DNA of 64,000 nt, taken from contig JALEZZ010000037.1 in assembly GCA_022773585.1 (NCBI GenBank), forward strand, positions 1 through 64,000, in the 5' to 3' direction. Made by a program: the position numbers and the translations under genes. Positions within the stretch are counted from its first letter, which is position 1. Each line of letters begins with the position of its first letter. Origin of the DNA: Selenomonas sp. Its GTDB lineage: Bacteria; Bacillota; Negativicutes; Selenomonadales; Selenomonadaceae. This document shows positions 24,590 to 64,000 of this stretch, in pieces. Under the pieces are notes generated by a model that saw only the letters and a program-made list of their open reading frames with translations, had not been told where the DNA came from and did not search any database.

Positions 24590-24652
24590 TGTAGAATTTT
24601 GGAGAAGAGACAGAGAAACCAACATGGAATCATGGGAAGGGGCGCGGATGGG

Positions 24653-25273
24653 ATGCCGATGTTTCGAAAATCGATGATTGTGCTGCTGCTGATTGCTCTC
24701 GTCGCGGGCGGCGGGGCGCTCTATGGCATGCAGGCACAAAGCGATGCGACCGTGCTCGATGCGGCGACGCAGCCGGCCGCTTCCTCCTCTGGTGATGATG
24801 GCGCGTCACAGGACGGCGGTCTCACGGTCTACGTCACAGGCGCCGTGAACCAGCCCGGCGTCGTGACGGTCGCCTCGGGCGCGCGCATCGCCGATGCCGT
24901 CAACGCTTGCGGCGGACTTTCGCCGGAGGCAGATGCCGAGGGCATCAACATGGCGCAGGCCGTGAAGGACGGCCAGCAGATTCGCGTGCCAGCCAAGGGC
25001 GCGCAGAAAGCGGCGGCAAATGACACGGCCGGTACGAAGACAGCAGCCTCCGCCAAAGCGGGCGGTTCTGAAGATGCGGGCGGCCTCGTCAACATCAACA
25101 CGGCCGACGAAAAAGCGCTCGACACCCTGCCGGGCGTCGGCCCCGCAACCGCGCAGAAAATCATCGAGTACCGCGAAAACGAAGGCGCATTCCAGAGCCC
25201 CGAAGACATCATGAAAGTCCGCGGCATCGGCAAGGCGAAATACGAGAAGATGAAAGATAAAATCACGATATAG
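24653..25273 (+). CDS. comEA: Competence protein ComEA
   Basis: ComEA is the membrane-anchored DNA receptor of the natural transformation machinery. One N-terminal membrane helix (IVLLLIALVAGGGALYGM) is followed by a low-complexity linker, an SLBB domain (LTVYVTGAVNQPGVVTV) and a C-terminal helix-hairpin-helix pair (GLVNINTADEKALDTLPGVG, and VRGIGKAKYEKMK). About 206 residues from ATG 24653, chosen for the GGAAGGGG 10 bases upstream; in-frame starts at 24599, 24632 and 24659 are also possible. comEC follows after one repeat module. Confidence 0.93.
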   Translation: MPMFRKSMIVLLLIALVAGGGALYGMQAQSDATVLDAATQPAASSSGDDGASQDGGLTVYVTGAVNQPGVVTVASGARIADAVNACGGLSPEADAEGINMAQAVKDGQQIRVPAKGAQKAAANDTAGTKTAASAKAGGSEDAGGLVNINTADEKALDTLPGVGPATAQKIIEYRENEGAFQSPEDIMKVRGIGKAKYEKMKDKITI

Positions 25274-25275
25274 AA

Positions 25276-25320
25276 GCCTCCCTCTAGAGGGAGGGGGACC
25301 GCGAAGCGGTGGAAGGAGTA
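25276..25320 (+). repeat. Single GC-rich palindromic repeat module (type B) between comEA and comEC
   Basis: A 45-bp module. The hairpin GCCTCCCTC-tag-AGGGAGG is followed by a second hairpin, ACCGC-gaa-GCGGT, and by GGAAGGAGT. It is nearly identical to the copy inside polA at 62492-62536 and to one arm of the composite element at 29246-29449. It may also terminate comEA transcription. Confidence 0.85.
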
Positions 25321-25367: not shown

Positions 25368-27827
25368 ATGAAGTATCTACTTGCACGTTTCGCCAATCTC
25401 GAAGAAGGGCAGCAGCAGGAGAGCTTTCTCGTGCTGCTGCTCTTCGCGCTTTCGCTCGGCATCTTCTGCGCGGCGGAATTGCCGTGGAAGCTGCCCGCCA
25501 CCATGCTCGGCGGCGCGTTCGTGCTTTTGCTCATCACATCCGCCGCCCTCGTCTTCCGCAGGAGCCGCTGGGCCTTCCTTCCGCTCCTGTTGCTTTTCCT
25601 CGTGCTTGGCGCTCTGCGATTTGTGACAGCCGACGCCCTGCCTGCGAATGACATTTCTGCCTTTGCCCGTCAGGACGTCCATGTGACGGGCCGCCTCGTC
25701 GAAGAACCGCGCATCACCGAAGATGCGGCGGGACAGACGAAAATCCGCTATCATGTCGAAGCCGAATCCATCCGCCAGCACGGCGAAGCGCCAGAGGCGG
25801 CGTGTGGCGGGCTCTACATCTACAGCCGCCCGCAGGAGGGGCAGGACGTGCCGGACGCCAAAATCGGAGACGTCGTCGAAGCCTCGGGCAAAGTGCGTCT
25901 GCCGCACGGCTACCAGAATCCCGGCCAGCTCGACACGAAGCTCTTATTGCGCGTGCAGGGCATCACGGCGTCGGTTGCGGTCGGCAAGGCGGGTGTGCGT
26001 GTGACGCCGGAGGAGCATCCGACACTCGCGATGCAGCTCATGCGGCGCATCGCGGCCATTCGCGAGCACTATGCAGCAAGCATGGCCGAGGTCATGCCGG
26101 AGCATGATGCGGCGGCGATTTTTGCGATGCTGTTCGGCGGCTATGACGGCATCGATCCGGCGCTGCTGATTTCATTCACCACAACGGGCATCATTCATAT
26201 TCTTTCAGTCTCGGGCTCGCATATCTCGCTCTTGGCGGCTGTGCTTGCCTGGTTTGGCGGCCTCCTGCGCCTGCCGCGCCTCGTGACGGCGGGGCTCGTG
26301 CTTTTCGCCATCACGGTTTATACGCTGCTCGCGGGCTGCGTGCCGCCGGTGTTGCGCGCGGCGGCCATGGGCGGGCTGACGTTTCTGGCACTGGCGCTCG
26401 GACGGGAGCGCGACGCGCGGCGGCTTCTGCTGATTGTCGGCATCGGGATGCTTTTGCTCTGGCCGCTCTTGCTGTTTCACATCAGCTTCCAGCTCTCGTT
26501 CCTTGCGACGGCCGGGCTCATCTACCTCGCGCCAGGGCTCGGCCGCTGGCTTGCGGCGCGCGGCCTGCCGCGCTTCCTCGCCGGGAGTTTTGCACTTTCC
26601 ATCAGCGCGCAGGGCGCGACGCTGCCGGTCATCGCCTGGTATTTCAACCAGCTTTCGCTCTCATGCCTGCTCGCGAACCTCATCGTCGTGCCAATCGTCG
26701 AGCTCATGATCGTCTTCGGCCTGTTCGCGGGCCTCGTCGGCTGGCTCATCGCGCCGCTCGGCAAGATCGTCTTTGCGCTCGACAGCCTGCTCCTCGGCCT
26801 CGTGCGCGAGATGACGCGCATCCTCGCGGAGCTGCCGGGCAGCATGGTCTGGGTGCCGACGCCGGGGCCGCTTGCCTGCTTCCTTTATTATCTTGGGCTT
26901 GGCGCATGTTTGCTGCCAGACGAAAAAAAGCAGGCGGCATCCGCCTTCCTCAAGACGCATCGGCGGCAGGGGCTTGCTGGTCTCGCAGCCGTTCTTGTCT
27001 TCTGCCTTGCGGCGCATCTCGCGCGGCCGAACGAGACGACCGTGCATTTCATCGACGTCGGGCAGGGCGATGCCGCGCTCGTCGTCACGCCGCACGGCCA
27101 TGCGTTTCTCGTCGATACGGGCGGCACGCGTGACGGTGCATTCGATGTCGGTTCGCGTGTCGATGTGCCGTATCTCCTGCACTATGGCATCCATTCCGTC
27201 GATGCGATTTTCCTTTCCCATGCGCACGAAGACCATGCGGCGGGCGCGGGTGCCGTCCTGCGCCTGCTGCCCGTCCAGCATGTCTTCACGTCGAGCGAGG
27301 GTCGCGAGATGTACGCAAAGAGCATGGGCCTTTCGACGGCGGATCCAGCGCTCCAGAAATTTGCGTCGCTCGAGACGGGCAGCCGCTACGAAATCGACGG
27401 CGTGACGGTCGAAGTCGTCTCTGCGCCGACCGCCGAGGAAGCGCAGGCGCAGGGCGGTGCGAATGGCAACGAGGCCTGCGACGTCGTGCGCGTGCAGTAT
27501 GGAAAGGCATCGTTTCTTTTCACGGGCGATATGACAAAGGAACAGGAAGCGCAGCTGCTCACAGACGGCCGCGACGTCTCTGCGACCGTGCTCAAAGTCG
27601 GTCATCACGGCTCGAACACGTCATCGAGCGAGCCGTTCCTGCGCGCCGTCGCGCCGCGCTGCGCCGTCATCTCCGTCGGCGCCGACAATACGTTCGGCCA
27701 CCCGAAGCCCGAAGTCCTCGAGCGATTCGCCAGCCTCGCCATCCCCGTCCTGCGCACGGATTTGCAGGGTGCCGTCGTGTTCCATACGGATGGAACGAAA
27801 ATATCTTATGAGACTTACGTGAAGTGA
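25368..27827 (+). CDS. comEC: DNA internalisation protein ComEC/Rec2
   Basis: The 819-residue polytopic channel protein takes single-stranded DNA across the inner membrane during transformation. It shows the N-terminal DUF4131 region with several helices, the Competence domain in the middle (FTTTGIIHILSVSGSHISLL is a conserved region, split here as GIIHILSVSGSHISLL), and a C-terminal metallo-beta-lactamase-like domain (FIDVGQGDAALVV, SHAHEDHAAGA, TGDMTKEQE, GHHGSNTSS). All segments are present and in frame, so the gene looks functional. ATG 25368 is the first good start, with a weak Shine-Dalgarno. Confidence 0.95.
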   Translation: MKYLLARFANLEEGQQQESFLVLLLFALSLGIFCAAELPWKLPATMLGGAFVLLLITSAALVFRRSRWAFLPLLLLFLVLGALRFVTADALPANDISAFARQDVHVTGRLVEEPRITEDAAGQTKIRYHVEAESIRQHGEAPEAACGGLYIYSRPQEGQDVPDAKIGDVVEASGKVRLPHGYQNPGQLDTKLLLRVQGITASVAVGKAGVRVTPEEHPTLAMQLMRRIAAIREHYAASMAEVMPEHDAAAIFAMLFGGYDGIDPALLISFTTTGIIHILSVSGSHISLLAAVLAWFGGLLRLPRLVTAGLVLFAITVYTLLAGCVPPVLRAAAMGGLTFLALALGRERDARRLLLIVGIGMLLLWPLLLFHISFQLSFLATAGLIYLAPGLGRWLAARGLPRFLAGSFALSISAQGATLPVIAWYFNQLSLSCLLANLIVVPIVELMIVFGLFAGLVGWLIAPLGKIVFALDSLLLGLVREMTRILAELPGSMVWVPTPGPLACFLYYLGLGACLLPDEKKQAASAFLKTHRRQGLAGLAAVLVFCLAAHLARPNETTVHFIDVGQGDAALVVTPHGHAFLVDTGGTRDGAFDVGSRVDVPYLLHYGIHSVDAIFLSHAHEDHAAGAGAVLRLLPVQHVFTSSEGREMYAKSMGLSTADPALQKFASLETGSRYEIDGVTVEVVSAPTAEEAQAQGGANGNEACDVVRVQYGKASFLFTGDMTKEQEAQLLTDGRDVSATVLKVGHHGSNTSSSEPFLRAVAPRCAVISVGADNTFGHPKPEVLERFASLAIPVLRTDLQGAVVFHTDGTKISYETYVK

Positions 27828-27840
27828 TTCTCGTATTTTA

Positions 27841-28134
27841 GCCTCCCTCTCAGAGGGTAATGTCATTAAGTTAAGCATAAGGCCCGCAAACTCTTGCCTC
27901 CCTCTCCGAGGGAGGGGAACCGCGTTAGCGGTGGTGGGTGTGTCGAAGGTAGGATGTAGCCACAAGTTCGATTGCATCTGCGAAGGTACGTCTTCGCAGA
28001 TACCAATCCTGTGATCCGATTCATCCTACCTTCGACACACCCCCAGTCAGCTTCGCTGCCAGCCCCCTCGGAGAGGGGGCCTGTGTTCGCTGGATTTTCG
28101 CTAACTTAATGACATTGCCCTCTGTGAGGGGGCC
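27841..28134. repeat. Composite palindromic element, 294 bp, between comEC and the CYTH gene
   Basis: No gene. The stretch is a long imperfect palindrome. The outer arms share a perfect 15-bp inverted repeat (AATGTCATTAAGTTA at 27859-27873, complement at 28102-28116). A repeat module follows inside each arm: hairpin plus ACCGCGTTAGCGGTGG on the left, GCTGGCAGCGAAGCTGACTG reading inward from the right. A perfect 21-bp inner inverted repeat (27936-27956 with 28022-28042) encloses a 65-bp core that itself holds a hairpin, ATCTGCGAAG...CTTCGCAGAT. The whole could fold into a cruciform or a long stem in RNA. Confidence 0.9.
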
Positions 28135-28720: not shown

Positions 28721-29239
28721 ATGGAATTTACTGACGTCATCCAGAACCGCTATGCCTGCAAGAAATTTGACGGCACGCCCGTTGCGAAAGAAGCGCTCGA
28801 CGCCATCCTCGCGGCCGGCCGCCTCGCGCCGACAGCGAAGAATTTGCAGGAGCAGCATGTCTATGTCATCCAGTCCGAGGAAGGGCTGAAAAAAATCGAC
28901 GAGCTCACGCCCTGCCGCTATGGCGCGCCCGTCGTGCTGCTCGTTGCGTTTGACACGACGAATGTCTTCACGTATCCGGGCGACAAATACAAGAGCGGCG
29001 TCGAGGATGCGACGATTGTTGCGACGCACCTCTGCCTCGCGGCGACAAATGCCGGCATCGAGAACTGCTGGCTGAACTTCTTCGACCCCGACAAGGCAAA
29101 AGAACTTTTCGGCCTGCCGGAAAACGAGCAGGTCGTCATGCTCCTCGACCTCGGCCACGCCGCCGACGTCCCAGCCGGCAAGCCGCTGAAAAATCATACA
29201 AGCCGCAAGCCCATTGATGAAACTGTAACGTATCTTTGA
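28721..29239 (+). CDS. Nitroreductase-family flavoprotein
   Basis: A 172-residue FMN-dependent oxidoreductase. The N-terminal FMN-phosphate motif NRYACKKFDG is followed by LAAGRLAPTAKNLQEQ, a dimer-fold helix region (ATIVATHLCLAATNAGIENCW) and the end GKPLKNHTSRKPIDE. It is at the short end of the family (170-200 residues). The physiological substrate is unknown. GGAGGAAACG precedes the ATG, and it probably shares a transcript with the CYTH gene. Confidence 0.9.
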   Translation: MEFTDVIQNRYACKKFDGTPVAKEALDAILAAGRLAPTAKNLQEQHVYVIQSEEGLKKIDELTPCRYGAPVVLLVAFDTTNVFTYPGDKYKSGVEDATIVATHLCLAATNAGIENCWLNFFDPDKAKELFGLPENEQVVMLLDLGHAADVPAGKPLKNHTSRKPIDETVTYL

Positions 29240-29245
29240 AGGAAA

Positions 29246-29449
29246 GGCTCCCTCTCAGAGGGAGCTGGCGCCGATAGGCGACTGAAGGAGTCTCACAAGA
29301 TAGACGATTTTGATTCTAGATTCCTGCTTATGCGGGTTGCGTAATTGCTTTTTGGGATGCCCGTGTAAGCTGCAATCGAACATCTCATATGCCCATCTTG
29401 TGAGACTCCCACCACCGCTTCGCGGTTCCCCTCCCTCTGAGAGGGAGGC
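29246..29449. repeat. Composite palindromic element, 204 bp, between the nitroreductase and helicase genes
   Basis: No gene. The left arm is a module with hairpin GGCTCCCTC...GAGGGAGC plus GCTGGCGCCGATAGGCGACTG. The right arm, read inward on the other strand, is GCCTCCCTC...GAGGGAGG plus AACCGCGAAGCGGTGG. A perfect 15-bp inner inverted repeat (GGAGTCTCACAAGAT at 29287-29301, complement at 29395-29409) joins them around a roughly 90-bp core that is itself weakly palindromic. Confidence 0.9.
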
Positions 29450-29464
29450 AAGGAGATACCATCT

Positions 29465-32062
29465 ATGTTAGAACTTCTCAACCTCAACGCCAAGCAACGT
29501 TCCGTCGCAGAAAATCTCGACGCCCATATTCTCCTGACTGCCCCGGCTGGCACGGGCAAGACGGACACTTTGGCCTACCGCATCGCGAACATTCTCGATG
29601 CCGGCCGCGCCGAGCCTGAGGAAGTGCTCTGCCTGACGTTCACGAACAAGGCGTGCCAGGAGATGCGGGACCGCATCGAGCTGCGGGCGGGCGAGCCGGG
29701 GAGCCGCGTCTGCGTGCGGACGTTCCACAGCTTCTGCTACGACATCATCAAGTCTGAGGCCAAGCGTCATTCCGACCTCTTCACGGATTTCGTGATTTTC
29801 GACGAGTCTGACTGCCGCACGCTGATCCGCGACCTCATGGGCGAAGACCTCGACGTGCCCGCCGCGACGCTCGCGCGCCTGCTGGCATTCACGAAGGAAA
29901 AGCTCGCAGTCTGGGACATCCTGACGGGCGATCCTGCCGCCGATGCCAAGGCCGTCGTCGCGCGCATCTATCGCGAGGCGAAAGACGATTTCGCGGCCAT
30001 CTGCGTCGATGACCATTACCAGCGCCTGCCGCGCCTCGTCGAGGGCTGGCAGGTCTGGGGCGCGTCGTTTCTGCGGCGCTACGACATGCGCTTGCAGGAG
30101 GCGCACGGCCTCGACTTCACCGACCTCATCGTGCGGGCGAAGCGGCTGCTGCGCGAGCGCGAAATCGCGCAGCGCTGGGCAGCGCGGTTTCAGTACATCA
30201 ACATCGACGAGGCGCAGGACACGAGCACGCTCGAATATGGCATTTTAGAGCGCATCTTTGGCAAGAGCAAGATTCTCTTGGCAGGCGACCTTTTTCAGAC
30301 CATCTACGGCTGGCGCGGCTCGCATCCCGAAGTCGTCGTGCGCCGCTTCGAGAAAACGCATCATCCCGAGAAAATCGTGCTGTCCGAAAATTATCGCTCG
30401 ACGCGCACGCTGCTCAAAGCCTCGTTCGGCGCGCTCGAGCGCCTGTTCCCGAAGCGCGTCGCCAAGGTCTATCCCGATGGCTTTGCGGCCGAGAGCACGG
30501 AGGAAGGTGCGCCCGTCGAAGTGAAAGGTGCGGCCGATTTTGCCGAGGAAGCGCAGTGGATCTACTACCGCATTCTCGAGCTCCCCGTGACGGATTATTC
30601 GCGCGTCGCCATCCTCGTGCGCAGCAACCGCTACGCGAAAGAACTTTCGGCGCAGTTCCGCGCCATCGGCCAGCACGTCGGCGGCGAGGCGCTGCCGTTC
30701 CTGCTGATTGATGACACGCGCTTCTTCCAGCGACAGGAGGTCAAGGATGCGCTGGCGTTCCTGCGCCTCGCGGTCAACCGCCACGATGTCGCGAGCCTCA
30801 TGCGCGTGCTCGGCCGCTATGTGCGCGGCGTCGGCCCTGCCGCCATCCGCACGATTTCCTCGCAGGAATATCGCCGCGCGGGCGTCCGCATGACGGATTA
30901 TCTCGATCCGGCTGCGCGCGAGGCGGGCGACCCGTTTGCGCCGCTCGTCGATGCGCTGGCCGCTGGGAACGTCGTCGTTTTCGATGTTGAATCGACAGGC
31001 CTCGATACGGCGCATGACGAAATCGTGCAGATTGCGGGCGTGCGTCTCGCGCCGGATGGCAGCATCAAAGAAAAATTCATGCGGTATCTCTGCCCGACGC
31101 AGCCCATCAGCCCGGGCGCGGAAGCCACGCATCATCTGACGCTGGCGTTCCTGCGCGAGCACGGCGAAGACCCTGCCGCCGTCCTGCGTGATTTCTGCGC
31201 GTTCGCGGCGGGCAGCGTCATCGTCGGGCACAACGTTACGTACGACCTGCGCATCCTCGGCAGCCAGCTCGCACGCCTCGGCCTACCGCCGCTTGCATAT
31301 CCCATGTATTTCGACACGCTCGACATCTTCCGCCGCTTTCATCCGAACCTGCCGAATCACCGGCTCGAATACCTCGGGCAGGTCTGCGAGGTCACGCACG
31401 CCTCGTCGCATGATGCATTCGATGACATCTGCGCGACGGCGGAGATTCTCTGCTACGCCGTGGGGCACGACATCCGGCCGACAGCTGCGGCGCGCCGCGC
31501 CTGCATGGAGAAATATCTCGACGTCTTTGCGCCGCTCGCGGAAAAGCTCGCGCTCCTGCGCGCGCAGGCGACGGAGCTCCGTCCGTGGCAGACGCTCGGC
31601 CAGATTGTGCTCGAGACGGGCATGGCCGACTACTACAAGAAGCGCCACGAGGAAAACCGCGTCGAGAACCTCCGCGACCTCTTCCGCCGCGCGAAGGAGC
31701 TCGATGACAAGGAGCTCCCGCCCGTTGATGCCGTCTACCAGTTCCTCAGGTACACGACGCTCTCGACGACCGACCTTGACGCGCTGACGAAGAAAAAGAA
31801 GATTCCCATCATCACGATTCATCAGGCCAAGGGCGCGGAGTTCGACGACGTCTTCCTCGCGGGTCTCCAGCAGGGCACATTTCCCGGCCTGCCTGCGCTC
31901 AAGAAGAAAGACACCAGCGAGGAAAAGCGCCTGTTCTACGTCGCCATCACGCGCGCGAAGCGGCAGCTCTTCCTCTCGTGGTGCCAGTTCCGCTACGGCC
32001 ATTACCAGCACGAAAGCGAGTTCATCCGGACGCTGCCGCAGGAGTGCGTGCGGCGGGTGTGA
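29465..32062 (+). CDS. UvrD/Rep-type helicase with an embedded DnaQ-like 3'-5' exonuclease
   Basis: The 865-residue SF1A helicase has Walker A APAGTGKTDTLAYR (about residue 30), CLTFTNKACQEMRDRIE, the DExx box YINIDEAQDTS (about 244), GDLFQTIYGWRGS, and in the C-terminal part TIHQAKGAEFDDVF (about 780) and FYVAITRAKRQL. Between about residues 500 and 665 a complete DEDDh exonuclease is inserted: VVFDVESTGLDT, IVGHNVTYD and SSHDAFDDICATAE. The insertion falls in the region of the 2B subdomain. The combination suggests DNA unwinding with 3'-5' trimming in repair or recombination. niaR follows at once. Confidence 0.92.
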   Translation: MLELLNLNAKQRSVAENLDAHILLTAPAGTGKTDTLAYRIANILDAGRAEPEEVLCLTFTNKACQEMRDRIELRAGEPGSRVCVRTFHSFCYDIIKSEAKRHSDLFTDFVIFDESDCRTLIRDLMGEDLDVPAATLARLLAFTKEKLAVWDILTGDPAADAKAVVARIYREAKDDFAAICVDDHYQRLPRLVEGWQVWGASFLRRYDMRLQEAHGLDFTDLIVRAKRLLREREIAQRWAARFQYINIDEAQDTSTLEYGILERIFGKSKILLAGDLFQTIYGWRGSHPEVVVRRFEKTHHPEKIVLSENYRSTRTLLKASFGALERLFPKRVAKVYPDGFAAESTEEGAPVEVKGAADFAEEAQWIYYRILELPVTDYSRVAILVRSNRYAKELSAQFRAIGQHVGGEALPFLLIDDTRFFQRQEVKDALAFLRLAVNRHDVASLMRVLGRYVRGVGPAAIRTISSQEYRRAGVRMTDYLDPAAREAGDPFAPLVDALAAGNVVVFDVESTGLDTAHDEIVQIAGVRLAPDGSIKEKFMRYLCPTQPISPGAEATHHLTLAFLREHGEDPAAVLRDFCAFAAGSVIVGHNVTYDLRILGSQLARLGLPPLAYPMYFDTLDIFRRFHPNLPNHRLEYLGQVCEVTHASSHDAFDDICATAEILCYAVGHDIRPTAAARRACMEKYLDVFAPLAEKLALLRAQATELRPWQTLGQIVLETGMADYYKKRHEENRVENLRDLFRRAKELDDKELPPVDAVYQFLRYTTLSTTDLDALTKKKKIPIITIHQAKGAEFDDVFLAGLQQGTFPGLPALKKKDTSEEKRLFYVAITRAKRQLFLSWCQFRYGHYQHESEFIRTLPQECVRRV

Positions 32063-46554: not shown

Positions 46555-46724
46555 GGCTCCCCCTTTGGGGGAGCTGGCACCCGTAAGGGTGACTGAGAGG
46601 GTAGCGACGTTTGAGAATTTCGATACGTCGCTACCCTCTGCTCTGTATAAGCGACCACTAGGCGCTAAAGCGCCAAGTGTCTGCTTATCCGCCCCTTCGG
46701 GGCACCTCCCCCAACGGGGGAGGC
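46555..46724. repeat. Composite palindromic element, 170 bp, between guaA and maf
   Basis: No gene. The left arm is hairpin GGCTCCCCC-ttt-GGGGGAGC plus GCTGGCACCCGTAAGGGTGACTG. The right arm, read inward on the other strand, is GCCTCCCCC-gtt-GGGGGAGG plus a variant second hairpin, GCCCC-gaa-GGGGC. A perfect 15-bp inner inverted repeat (AGAGGGTAGCGACGT at 46596-46610, complement at 46625-46639) encloses 14 bp. An additional hairpin, GGCGCT-aa-AGCGCC, lies in the right arm. Confidence 0.88.
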
Positions 46725-58222: not shown

Positions 58223-58269
58223 AGCCCCCCTCTAGAGGGGGGACGGGCCGCGTAAGCGGCGGGGGGAGT
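58223..58269. repeat. Single palindromic repeat module between the radical SAM gene and rng
   Basis: AGCCCCCCTC-tag-AGGGGGG is followed by GGCCGC-gta-AGCGGC and GGGGGGAGT. This is a C-rich variant of the type B module. The 62 bases to the rng start hold nothing else recognisable. Confidence 0.8.
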
Positions 58270-58331
58270 CCCCTGCATGGCAATACGATTCGTAGGGCAA
58301 TTTCTTCCGCGGGTGCGACAGGAGAATCCAA

Positions 58332-59825: not shown

Positions 59826-59930
59826 GCAGCCCCCCTCCATGAGGGGGGACGGGCCGCGTGAGCGGCGGGGGGAGTAGTAGGATGCTGTAGCCGAACTTAT
59901 TCCTATCAATGCATCTAAGAAATTTCTTGT
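59826..59930. repeat. Palindromic module with an extended tail between rng and the L,D-transpeptidase gene
   Basis: The type B module (AGCCCCCCTC...GAGGGGGG, then GGCCGC-gtg-AGCGGC) is followed by GTAGGATGCTGTAGCCGAAC, then GCATCTAAGAAATTTCTT. The same order of strings, GTAGGATG-TAGCC, then GCATCTGCGAAG and a small palindrome, follows the left inner arm of the composite element at 27950-27999, so this looks like a diverged half of that element. No gene lies in the 59781-60002 interval. Confidence 0.65.
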
Positions 59931-61256: not shown

Positions 61257-61289
61257 TCCGCAAGCGTTCTGATGACAGGAGGGAATCCC

Positions 61290-63821
61290 TTGAAAAAGCG
61301 TTTCGTCATCCTTGACGGCAGCAGCCTCTTCTTCCGGGCATTCTTCGCCCTGCCGCCGCTCACGTCTCCGACGGGAGAGTACACGAATGCCATCTTCGGC
61401 TTTGCGAACATGTTCCTGAAACTCTGGGAAGAGCTGAAGCCGGACGAGCTCGTCATCGCGTTCGACAAGAGCCGCCATACGTTCCGCACGGAACTTTACC
61501 CTGACTATAAAGGCACGCGCGATAAGACACCCGACGAGCTCAAGAGCCAGATTCCGCTGCTCGAAGAGTTCGCGGGGGCGCTCGGCGTGACGTTCCTCGA
61601 AAAGGATAACTACGAAGCCGATGACATCATCGGCACGCTCGCGACGCAGGCGGCGGCCGCAGGCTATGAAGCGAGCGTCGTCACGGGCGACCGCGATGCG
61701 CTCCAGCTCGTGCGGCCGAATCTGCGCGTGCTCATGACGAAGAAGGGCATTTCCGACCTCAAGGAGTACGACGAAGCGGCGTTCACGGAAGAATACCAGA
61801 TGGAGCCGCTGAAGCTCATCGACCTCAAAGGCCTCATGGGCGACACGGCTGACAACATCCCAGGCGTTCCGGGCGTCGGGCCGAAGACGGCAACGAAGCT
61901 GCTCTTGGAATACGGCACGCTCGAAAACGTCCTCGACCATGCGGGCGAGGTCAAGGGGAAGAAGCTTCAGGAACGCCTGACGACGTTTGCCGAGCAGGCG
62001 AGACTCTCGAAGACGCTGGCTACCATCAACTGCAGCGTGCCAGACCTCGACGCGCCGGGCGCGTACAGCGTCCATCCAGACGCCGCGAAATTTACGACGT
62101 TCTGCCAGCGCTACAACCTCAAGGCCGTGCTGACGCGCGGCAAGAAATTGCTGGCCAAGCTGGCGGCTGCGGAAAAGGGCGATGCATTGACGCTGTCGTC
62201 TGATGACGCAGCCAAAGCAGGCAGCAAGGCGACAACATCCCCGAAAGCCGCAAAGAAAGCTGCGGCGGATGCGCCAGCGATGCCGGACCTATCAAAAATC
62301 GATGTTGTCACGGCGGACGGCCATATCGTCTTTGACTGGAAAGCCTGCCTCCATGCGGGACTTCGCTTTGATGATGGCAAGCATGTCGATGACCTCAAGC
62401 TTATGGCATACCTGCTGCATCCCGAGGTGACGGAATACACAATTCCCGCGCTGCTCGCGGAATTTTTCCCCGAAGAAGTGACCACCCTCATGCCTCCCCC
62501 TCTGGGGGAGGGGGACCGCGAAGCGGTGGAGAGGGTTACCCGCGCTGCTTATGAACGCCTCCGCCCTGTTATGCGCGCCCAGCTTGACGCGCTCGGCCTG
62601 ACGAAGCTTTACGAGGACATCGAACTGCCGCTCGTGCCCGTGCTCTATGAAATGGAGCAGACCGGCGTCTTTGTGAACCGCGACCACCTCGCAGAAAAAG
62701 CCGAGGTCATCGGCGACCGCATCAAGGGGCTTGAAGACGACATCTACACGCTTGCGGGCAAGACGTTCAAAATCAACTCGCCGAAGCAGCTCGGCGCCGT
62801 CCTTTTCGACGACCTCGGCCTGCCGCCCGTCAAGAAGACGAAGACGGGCTATTCGACGAATGCCGAAGTCCTCGAGACGCTCAGGTACCAGCACCCGATT
62901 ATCGAGTGCATCCTTTCCTATCGTCTCTGGACGAAGCTCAAATCGACATACCTCGACGGCATCGCGGCACTGATTCATCCCGAGACGGGCCGCGTCCACA
63001 CGAGCTTCAACCAGACCGTCACAGCGACGGGCCGCCTTTCGAGTTCCGACCCGAACCTCCAGAACATCCCTGTGCGCACAGAGCAGGGCAAGGAGATTCG
63101 CGCGCTGTTCGAGCCGGGGGAGGGCTACGATGCCATGCTCTCGGCCGACTACTCGCAGATCGAACTGCGCCTGCTCGCGCACATGTCGCAGGATGAAAAC
63201 TTCATCGAGGCGTTCCGCGAAGGGCAGGACATCCACGCGCGCACGGCCGCCGAAGTCTTCCATGTCCCCATCGAGGACGTCACGAGCGAGGAGCGCCGCC
63301 GTGCGAAAGCGGTCAACTTCGGCATCGTCTACGGCATCAGCGATTACGGCCTCTCGCGCGACCTCCACATTTCGCGCAAGGAAGCGGCAGGCTACATCGA
63401 CGAATACTTTGCGCGCTATCCTGGCGTCAAATCGTTCATGGACAAGGTCGTCGAAGAGGCACACCAGACGGGCGCCGTCACGACGATGTACGGCCGCCGC
63501 CGCGAGCTCCCGGCCATCCACAGCAAGAACTTCAACCAGCGCTCGCTCGCCGAGCGCATGGCGATGAATACCCCCATCCAGGGCACGGCGGCTGACATCA
63601 TCAAGATTGCCATGATTCGCGCCTCACGCATGCTCAAAGAAGCAAATGTCAAGAGCCGCATCCTGCTCCAAGTCCACGACGAACTCGTACTCGAAGTGGT
63701 GAATGAAGAAATCCAGAAAGTCACGGACATCCTCAAAGAAGCCATGGAGCACGCGGCCGACCTGTCCGTCCCGCTCGTCATTGACGTCAATGTAGGAAAG
63801 AACTGGGCGGAGGCAAAGTAG
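61290..63821 (+). CDS. polA: DNA polymerase I, with a repeat-encoded insertion
   Basis: The 843-residue polymerase for repair and lagging-strand processing has an N-terminal 5'-nuclease (ILDGSSLFFRAFFALPPL, VTGDRDALQL, PGVPGVGPKTATKLL). The central exonuclease-like domain lacks clear catalytic acidic residues and is probably inactive as in Bacillus. The polymerase domain has motif A ADYSQIELRLLAHMS (about residue 619), motif B RRRAKAVNFGIVYG and motif C QVHDELVLEV (about 795). At residues 401-416 the string MPPPLGEGDREAVERV is encoded by a palindromic repeat module inserted in frame. The start TTG 61290 has AGGAGGG 6 bases upstream. Confidence 0.96.
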   Translation: MKKRFVILDGSSLFFRAFFALPPLTSPTGEYTNAIFGFANMFLKLWEELKPDELVIAFDKSRHTFRTELYPDYKGTRDKTPDELKSQIPLLEEFAGALGVTFLEKDNYEADDIIGTLATQAAAAGYEASVVTGDRDALQLVRPNLRVLMTKKGISDLKEYDEAAFTEEYQMEPLKLIDLKGLMGDTADNIPGVPGVGPKTATKLLLEYGTLENVLDHAGEVKGKKLQERLTTFAEQARLSKTLATINCSVPDLDAPGAYSVHPDAAKFTTFCQRYNLKAVLTRGKKLLAKLAAAEKGDALTLSSDDAAKAGSKATTSPKAAKKAAADAPAMPDLSKIDVVTADGHIVFDWKACLHAGLRFDDGKHVDDLKLMAYLLHPEVTEYTIPALLAEFFPEEVTTLMPPPLGEGDREAVERVTRAAYERLRPVMRAQLDALGLTKLYEDIELPLVPVLYEMEQTGVFVNRDHLAEKAEVIGDRIKGLEDDIYTLAGKTFKINSPKQLGAVLFDDLGLPPVKKTKTGYSTNAEVLETLRYQHPIIECILSYRLWTKLKSTYLDGIAALIHPETGRVHTSFNQTVTATGRLSSSDPNLQNIPVRTEQGKEIRALFEPGEGYDAMLSADYSQIELRLLAHMSQDENFIEAFREGQDIHARTAAEVFHVPIEDVTSEERRRAKAVNFGIVYGISDYGLSRDLHISRKEAAGYIDEYFARYPGVKSFMDKVVEEAHQTGAVTTMYGRRRELPAIHSKNFNQRSLAERMAMNTPIQGTAADIIKIAMIRASRMLKEANVKSRILLQVHDELVLEVVNEEIQKVTDILKEAMEHAADLSVPLVIDVNVGKNWAEAK
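62492..62536 (+). repeat. Type B palindromic module inside polA, in frame
   Basis: A 45-bp module with hairpin GCCTCCCCCTC-tg-GGGGGAGG, then ACCGC-gaa-GCGGT and GGAGAGGGT. It differs from the comEA-comEC copy by only a few bases. Its length is a multiple of three and it carries no stop in this frame, so polA remains open across it. Confidence 0.9.
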
Positions 63822-63955: not shown

Positions 63956-64000
63956 GCCCCCCTCTCAGAGGGGGGAGGGCCGCGTGAGCGGCAGGGGGAG
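63956..64000. repeat. Palindromic repeat module at the window edge
   Basis: GCCCCCCTCTC-AGAGGGGGG, then GGCCGCGTGAGCGGC and AGGGGGAG: a further C-rich type B module, cut by the end of the window. Whether a facing module follows cannot be seen. Confidence 0.8.

Follow-up and report, generated by a model that had tools for sequence, protein, structure and literature searches.

How does a palindromic repeat come to lie inside the reading frame of polA, the gene for DNA polymerase I, and what has kept it there? The 64-kb stretch of DNA analyzed here (the window) belongs to a Selenomonas genome (G000), that of a gut, probably rumen, bacterium, and its polA, the single match to this gene in the genome, contains a 45-nt module with two hairpins (Table). 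The reading we favor, with a probability of roughly 0.88, is that a dispersed selfish hairpin repeat inserted in frame into polA and has been kept there as a trapped copy.

The DNA of the module, GCCTCCCCCTCTGGGGGAGGGGGACCGCGAAGCGGTGGAGAGGGT, holds two stem-loops, of 8 and 5 bp, separated by 3 bases and followed by a purine-rich end, and is translated as MPPPLGEGDREAVERV, the last codon ending at 62537. Counted from the ATG at 61272, these are residues 407–422; the original prediction gave 401–416, which holds for a TTG start at 61290. The closest copy within the window, on the minus strand at 29404, matches the module at 37 of 45 positions without gaps, compared with a best match of 25–28 positions when the window was shuffled base by base 20 times, and thus the resemblance exceeds what chance provides. 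The near base-for-base match that had been proposed with the copy between comEA and comEC is looser than this: the core GGGAGGGGGACCGCGAAGCGGTGGA is common to both, but several small gaps are needed to align the rest. An exact 45/45 copy, with both hairpins, is found in the sister genome G003 (L095, G003:C32:2012-2056), the only one among 310 loci beyond polA itself (L001 and L064), and there no frame has a good coding score on both sides. Judged by its sequence, the polA module is a genuine member of a dispersed repeat family, and its in-frame position in the gene is as originally described.

Table. Features of the window, with positions on the 64-kb stretch and the evidence for each.
Feature	Positions	Strand	Evidence
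polA, DNA polymerase I, 849 aa with ATG start	61272..63821	+	ORF/translation; Pfam 5_3_exonuc_N, 5_3_exonuc, DNA_pol_A
45-nt palindromic module, in frame in polA	62492..62536	+	R1 covariance model, 66.9 bits (this copy was itself part of the model alignment); exact copy in G003
Stem-loop 1 (8 bp) of polA module	62493..62511	+	sequence; 95.6% of cells paired, 17 copies
Stem-loop 2 (5 bp, GAA loop) of polA module	62515..62527	+	sequence; 90.4% of cells paired, 17 copies
Copy between comEA and comEC	25277..25320	+	R1, 59.4 bits; neighbors by Pfam
First arm of head-to-head composite	27897..27942	+	R1, 64.9 bits
Second arm of head-to-head composite	28036..28080	-	R1, 45.1 bits; sequence
Copy downstream of nitroreductase-like ORF	29247..29292	+	R1, 35.1 bits; Pfam
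Copy upstream of UvrD-type helicase gene, 37/45 with polA module	29404..29448	-	R1; Pfam
Copy ending in GAGAGGGTAG type	46556..46603	+	R1, 48.8 bits
Module plus TAAGCAGAC..GGCGCT..AGCGCC unit	46661..46723	-	R1; sequence
Module copy	58225..58270	+	R1, 56.6 bits
Module copy	59831..59876	+	R1, 53.8 bits
Copy cut by window end	63957..64000	+	R1, 52.0 bits; entire copy in contig, 62.9 bits

The covariance model of the family (R1) rests on an alignment of 17 copies, of which 9, including that in polA, come from the window and 8 from elsewhere in the genome, with a two-stem structure written by hand from the 17 sequences. In this alignment 93.6% of the cells are paired, a level seen in none of 500 shuffles and in none of the slid versions (46–80%), and changes on both sides of a stem affect 15 cells (again 0/500 shuffles as high). 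Two covariation measures are weak: changes on both sides occur in 5 of 13 pairs (18/500 shuffles as high), and there are 10 further pair types (477/500). The repeat family is palindromic and hairpin forming.

Searches with R1 return 10 copies in the window at E < 1e-8, 9 of which are its own members by construction. At least 150 copies are present in G000 as a whole, and at least 150 in each of the sister genomes G003, G004, G005, and G006; for G001 and G002, of the same genus, the counts are at least 17 and at least 1, respectively. Six other genera of Selenomonadaceae (G007 to G012) have at least 94, at least 130, at least 79, 0, 0, and at least 85 copies among the matches listed, and elsewhere in the class, seven of eight additional genomes have 0 among the matches listed and one (G018) at least 6. 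The 11 copies in 64 kb extrapolate to ~475 per genome, a rough figure; a stem-based scan gave "263 distinct copies" with false hits included, and no count is taken from it. Flanks were analyzed for 143 of the 150 G000 copies listed, and the repeats are abundant outside genes. Rfam has no match above gathering score within the 64-kb window.

Behind the core, tails read in 38 copies include gtcgaaggtag, cccctgca..cgcgggtgcg, ctcacaag, agtaggatgc..ccaactact, and ataagcagac.., and cores often stand head to head with a second core, an inner hairpin between them. In several tail classes there is a long inner hairpin, and its two arms seem to covary. In the window, a composite of ~290 bp (27845–28134) consists of a hairpin, a CAATGTCATTAAGTTAAGC-like end, two head-to-head modules with an inner hairpin between them, an inverted end, and a hairpin, and has a MITE-like look. 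Ends of the CAATGTCATTAAGTTAAGC kind flank composites, and ends like these also adjoin module copies close to several contig ends of G000. The module between comEA (24599–25273) and comEC (25368–27827), genes assigned by Pfam, starts no more than 3 nt from the stop codon of comEA (window 25275–25320), as a terminator might. Two other stretches considered as comEA and comEC (28721–29239 and 29465–32062) were ruled out by Pfam.

Analysis of the polA site across relatives reveals that the insert is present in four of seven genomes of the genus (G000, G004, G005, and G006, the polA of G005 ending at a contig end inside the module) and absent from the other three (G001, G002, and G003). Among named records, RUG102 (L031), RUG12578 (L032), and RUG371 (L045) have the insert and RUG043 (L033) is without it; these records and the genus genomes are probably the same genomes. 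In 11 polA loci from other genera of Selenomonadaceae (L034 to L044, taking in Mitsuokella multacida, M. jalaludinii, Selenomonas ruminantium, and Anaerovibrio) and in the partial L046, R1 detects no module at E up to 0.01; the comparison leaves out 17 more distant polA loci (L047 to L063). The expectation that the insertion would be restricted to one lineage is supported by the alignment of PolA orthologues, where it occurs only in part of one genus and is encoded by repeat DNA.

From FFP to the next anchor there are 40 residues in the window, 43 in G004 (L031), 60 in L032, 30 in L033 and in G001, and 32 in G002, while L034 to L044 and L046 have 34–35, with the exception of L039 (51). An insertion of roughly 15 residues had been predicted, and an insert there is, but the net gain over the PolA of G003 (81–85% identical to that of G000, and without insert) amounts to +10 in the window and +13 in G004. 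Compared with 10 of the 11 other-genus loci it is 5–9 residues, L039 being longer than the window, and the window PolA has also lost three residues (QPE) beside the module. A net gain of fewer than 15 residues means either that something other than a clean +45 nt was inserted or that later indels followed. In addition, L039 (RUG179) has a loop of its own at the same site, 16 residues longer and without an R1 match; given this independent longer loop, the site seems generally tolerant.

Two genomes differ inside the module itself. In G006 (L032) and G005 (L045), the module in polA holds 51 nt more, the core of which (TAAGCAGAC..GGCGCT..AGCGCC) is itself repeat, recurring at 46661–46687 of the window, as part of the unit listed in the Table, and at other loci. 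Their module also has a different 3′ end, which resembles another subtype and goes unmatched by the 27-nt subtype pattern used below, so that conversion or a separate insertion is possible in these two. Strong conservation of the module within polA was considered and rejected: conservation is ordinary, with 227 of 832 15-codon windows of polA differing as little between G000 and L031.

An AlphaFold2 model of PolA from 23 sequences (mean pLDDT 85.9, pTM 0.61) shows no regular structure for residues 403–415 (block means of 67 and 63, and below 50 at 411–413) and begins a helix at residue 416, inside the module, the helix part being well ordered. Alignment with Taq polymerase, using what we take to be its domain borders, places the site toward the C-terminal end of the degenerate exonuclease domain. 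The original prediction had put it between the exonuclease-like and polymerase domains; the module does lie ~50 residues before the polymerase domain (471–847 by Pfam), but both the model and the Taq alignment set it within the degenerate exonuclease domain. The module is accordingly modeled as a loop of low confidence that leads into the first part of a helix, within the vestigial 3′–5′ exonuclease domain.

The module is not confined to polA. A search for similar peptides had been proposed as a check, and further G000 genes do encode them; in total 10 modules lie in six protein genes: polA and those for a U32 peptidase, DHFR, TmcAL, CbiA, and CbiQ-CbiO. The five besides polA were obtained by following frames through modules, and were then confirmed by Pfam, genus orthologues, and the covariance model. 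All six genes have sites that are empty or filled otherwise in sister species. For example, the U32 peptidase has three modules in G000, two each in G004, G005, and G003 (one of the latter partial), and one in G006. Its site 1 is filled in G000, G004, and G005 (204–207 nt between anchors) and empty in G006 and G003 (108 nt), while site 2 holds modules in all five and is short in G001 and G002. DHFR, whose Pfam domain is split in two stretches, has one module in each of G000, G004, and G005 (258 nt between anchors), two in G003, and none in G006 (165 nt). In TmcAL, the anchors are 414, 411, 273, 192, and 174 nt apart in G000, G004, G005, G006, and G003, with two modules, two modules, one module, a lone stem-loop 1, and none, respectively.

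Linkers between domains are filled as well. The linker between the two Pfam domains of CbiA carries modules in G000, G003, G004, and G005, whereas the linker of G006 has a weak match to a stem-loop. CbiQ and CbiO form a single frame in G000 (545 aa; L227:1035-2669), G004, and G006, with modules in the linker of the first two and none in G006, and occupy separate frames in G001 and G002. Overall, the TmcAL, CbiA, U32 peptidase, DHFR, and CbiQ-CbiO sites appear to be recurrently filled, with different modules in sister species, and the in-frame fillings of G000 outside polA measure 93–240 nt above the empty or shortest site. G003 has a further case, a 1328-aa frame (L293:1319-5302, contig C136) with two ABC transporter halves and three modules, located where the halves join and in the second linker; our guess is that it is CydD-CydC-like. 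Domain borders and alignments suggest that the sites in these non-PolA proteins are loops or linkers. Among the 150 G000 copies listed, four are in the six genes (polA, U32 site 2, DHFR, and CbiQ-CbiO), which under-counts in-gene copies because the remaining in-gene modules are absent among the matches listed.

The scan for read-through frames gave 202 rows. The first 60, minus window rows and duplicates, were inspected singly, and many of these were dropped as antisense or upstream extensions. A codon-score filter over the 202 kept 13, of which both L099 rows, L190, L141, and two antisense L001 rows were judged false; TmcAL and CbiA fall below this filter and are retained by homology and the covariance model. 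Out of nine further read-through stretches, only L293 was retained: L288, L289, L291, L292, L295, and L296 have low coding scores or arginine-rich, antisense-like translations, L290 was set aside as a module upstream of, and in frame with, membrane-protein-like sequence, and the frame read for L294 has 88 aa, vs 320 aa from the frame scan.

The exact subtype of the polA copy may add a temporal aspect. The 27-nt 3′ part of the module (GGGGGACCGCGAAGCGGTGGAGAGGGT, at most one mismatch allowed) has a single match in G000, the polA copy, compared with 101 in G003, 7 in G004 (one being polA), 1 in G005, and 2 in G006; it is absent from G001 and G002, and a backward control pattern has 0 matches in all seven genomes. 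In G000, a subtype ending GGTGGTGGGAGT is common. With a single occurrence in G000, in polA, against 101 in G003, the polA copy may be the fossil of an earlier burst of its subtype. We keep this as a conditional reading, given that looser relatives ending GAGAGGGT are present elsewhere in G000 (L008, L012, and window 46556) and that the pattern allows up to one mismatch.

These observations are best accounted for by a REP/MITE-like selfish module that entered polA in the lineage leading to G000, G004, G005, and G006, in a loop ahead of the last helix of the vestigial 3′–5′ exonuclease domain. The module would have survived because it is short, keeps the frame, and sits in a tolerant loop, and its 3′ half would supply the start of the next helix. 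It would now be fixed, since imprecise loss would break an important gene, and, being held in place, it would have outlived the other copies of its exact subtype in G000. A number of further genes in the genus would have undergone like events, often in the same linkers and with different modules. The data directly show the repeat family, its in-frame modules, and their distribution over the genus, whereas we infer a single origin of the polA insert, mobility by a trans-acting enzyme, the fossil status of the polA copy, and tolerance rather than benefit.

Could the resemblance have arisen without any insertion, by a linker drifting toward a proline/glycine-rich peptide with repeat-like, GC-rich DNA? 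Hairpins form easily in such DNA, and the original prediction had named as a sign of chance the same residues at this site in distant relatives, encoded by non-repeat DNA. What other Selenomonadaceae have there is a faint likeness, i.e. an acidic helix start of similar character (e.g. FADEREEAVWQA), and L034 to L044 gave no R1 match. With both stems present, 45/45 identity to a copy in another species, and 37/45 to a copy in the window, where none of 20 shuffles exceeded 28, chance or convergence has next to no probability. It is also conceivable that the peptide or the mRNA hairpins have become useful to PolA, through a translation pause, binding, or regulation, which would suit the retention of the insert in 4/4 mutually nearest genomes of the genus and the well-ordered helix part of the model. 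Against such recruitment, part of the module is modeled as a loop of low confidence, its middle holds the 51 extra nt in G005 and G006, its conservation is ordinary, and similar modules occur in unrelated proteins. The notion that the module is unusually open was likewise rejected, as the consensus has about as many open frames when shuffled; with openness given by base composition and conservation ordinary, we see no sign of function and regard recruitment as quite improbable.

Gene conversion or template switching might instead have copied the module into polA, with spread by recombination and no transposase. Recombination between copies evidently shuffles modules, given that ends and tails combine freely, and the polA form of G005 and G006 blends two subtypes, as does a similar mixture at L319 of G003. 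The search for a mobilizing enzyme, made with the Y1 transposase domain PF01797 alone, also fits this account, with no match in G000 (a 99.99% complete draft in 94 contigs), G001, or G005; matches exist in G002, G003, G004, and G006, and the search was positive in 5 of 14 control genomes. However, a first insertion at a copy-free site demands more than conversion, and the head-to-head composites with inverted ends look MITE-like, so we consider this route unlikely as the origin of the insert. No target-site duplication is discernible in the alignment of filled and empty sites, whose flanks are too diverged for the ends to be read. Most likely, the module is a non-autonomous hairpin repeat, retained where its frame is open and the protein tolerant. 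A wider proposal, that palindromic modules keep driving the evolution of linkers in the genus and that trapped copies form a datable fossil record of bursts in core enzymes, is tentative, and we would place the odds slightly against it.

Rickettsia provides the best-shown case of protein-building selfish DNA, for which an obligate intracellular life under weak selection is a ready excuse, and the palindromic elements of Wolbachia are likewise dispersed between genes and in frame inside unrelated proteins. Selenomonadaceae, with genomes of 2.2–3.4 Mb, do the same in polA, DHFR, TmcAL, CbiA, and others, and their sister species present every stage, i.e. empty, one module, composite, and differently filled. 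Insertion mode, tolerant protein sites, and usefulness thereby become testable by comparison and simple enzyme assays. In-frame palindromic repeats in Selenomonadaceae are, as originally supposed, without a description that we could find in the open-licence literature, a scope outside which most subscription papers fall. The large case in this family is apparently new and independent; its modular core and the recurrent filling of the same sites are new there, and so, it seems, is a trapped copy outliving its subtype.

Rickettsia palindromic elements (RPE) are dispersed, both intergenic and in frame in unrelated conserved proteins (PMC2229807, PMC10969869). The parallel drawn at the outset holds up, as the present repeat is palindromic, has many copies outside genes, and lies in frame in six unrelated genes, a likeness of behavior. 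RPE measure ~105–150 bp (PMC2229807, PMC10969869), against a 45-nt two-hairpin core here. Unlike RPE, this core stands alone, as in polA, or inside longer composites, and it is read in different frames, e.g. as PPPLGEGDREAVERV in PolA and as APLxxGGGPEGxGxSPA in U32 site 1; the host of RPE is an obligate intracellular alphaproteobacterium, and here it is a member of the Selenomonadaceae. The enterobacterial ERIC/RU-1, YPAL/RU-2, and RU-3 are small mobile repeats with open frames fused to genes (PMC2759123, PMC2229807), and their units of 103–168 bp (PMC2759123) again exceed the present core. One linker filled differently across sister species, as found here, is not described for them in the accessible parts of PMC2759123 and PMC2229807. 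REP sequences and BIMEs associated with RAYT/TnpA-REP are short palindromes of high copy number that form composites of alternating orientation (PMC3733652, PMC2817692). The Selenomonadaceae repeat is similarly short, palindromic, many-copy, and composite forming, but it differs from REP with RAYT in having two hairpins per core and no Y1_Tnp match in G000.

Finally, the PolA of G006 (L032, i.e. RUG12578; also L066 and L073, on G006:C17) is split in two frames near query residues 766–771, which is either a real frameshift or an assembly error.
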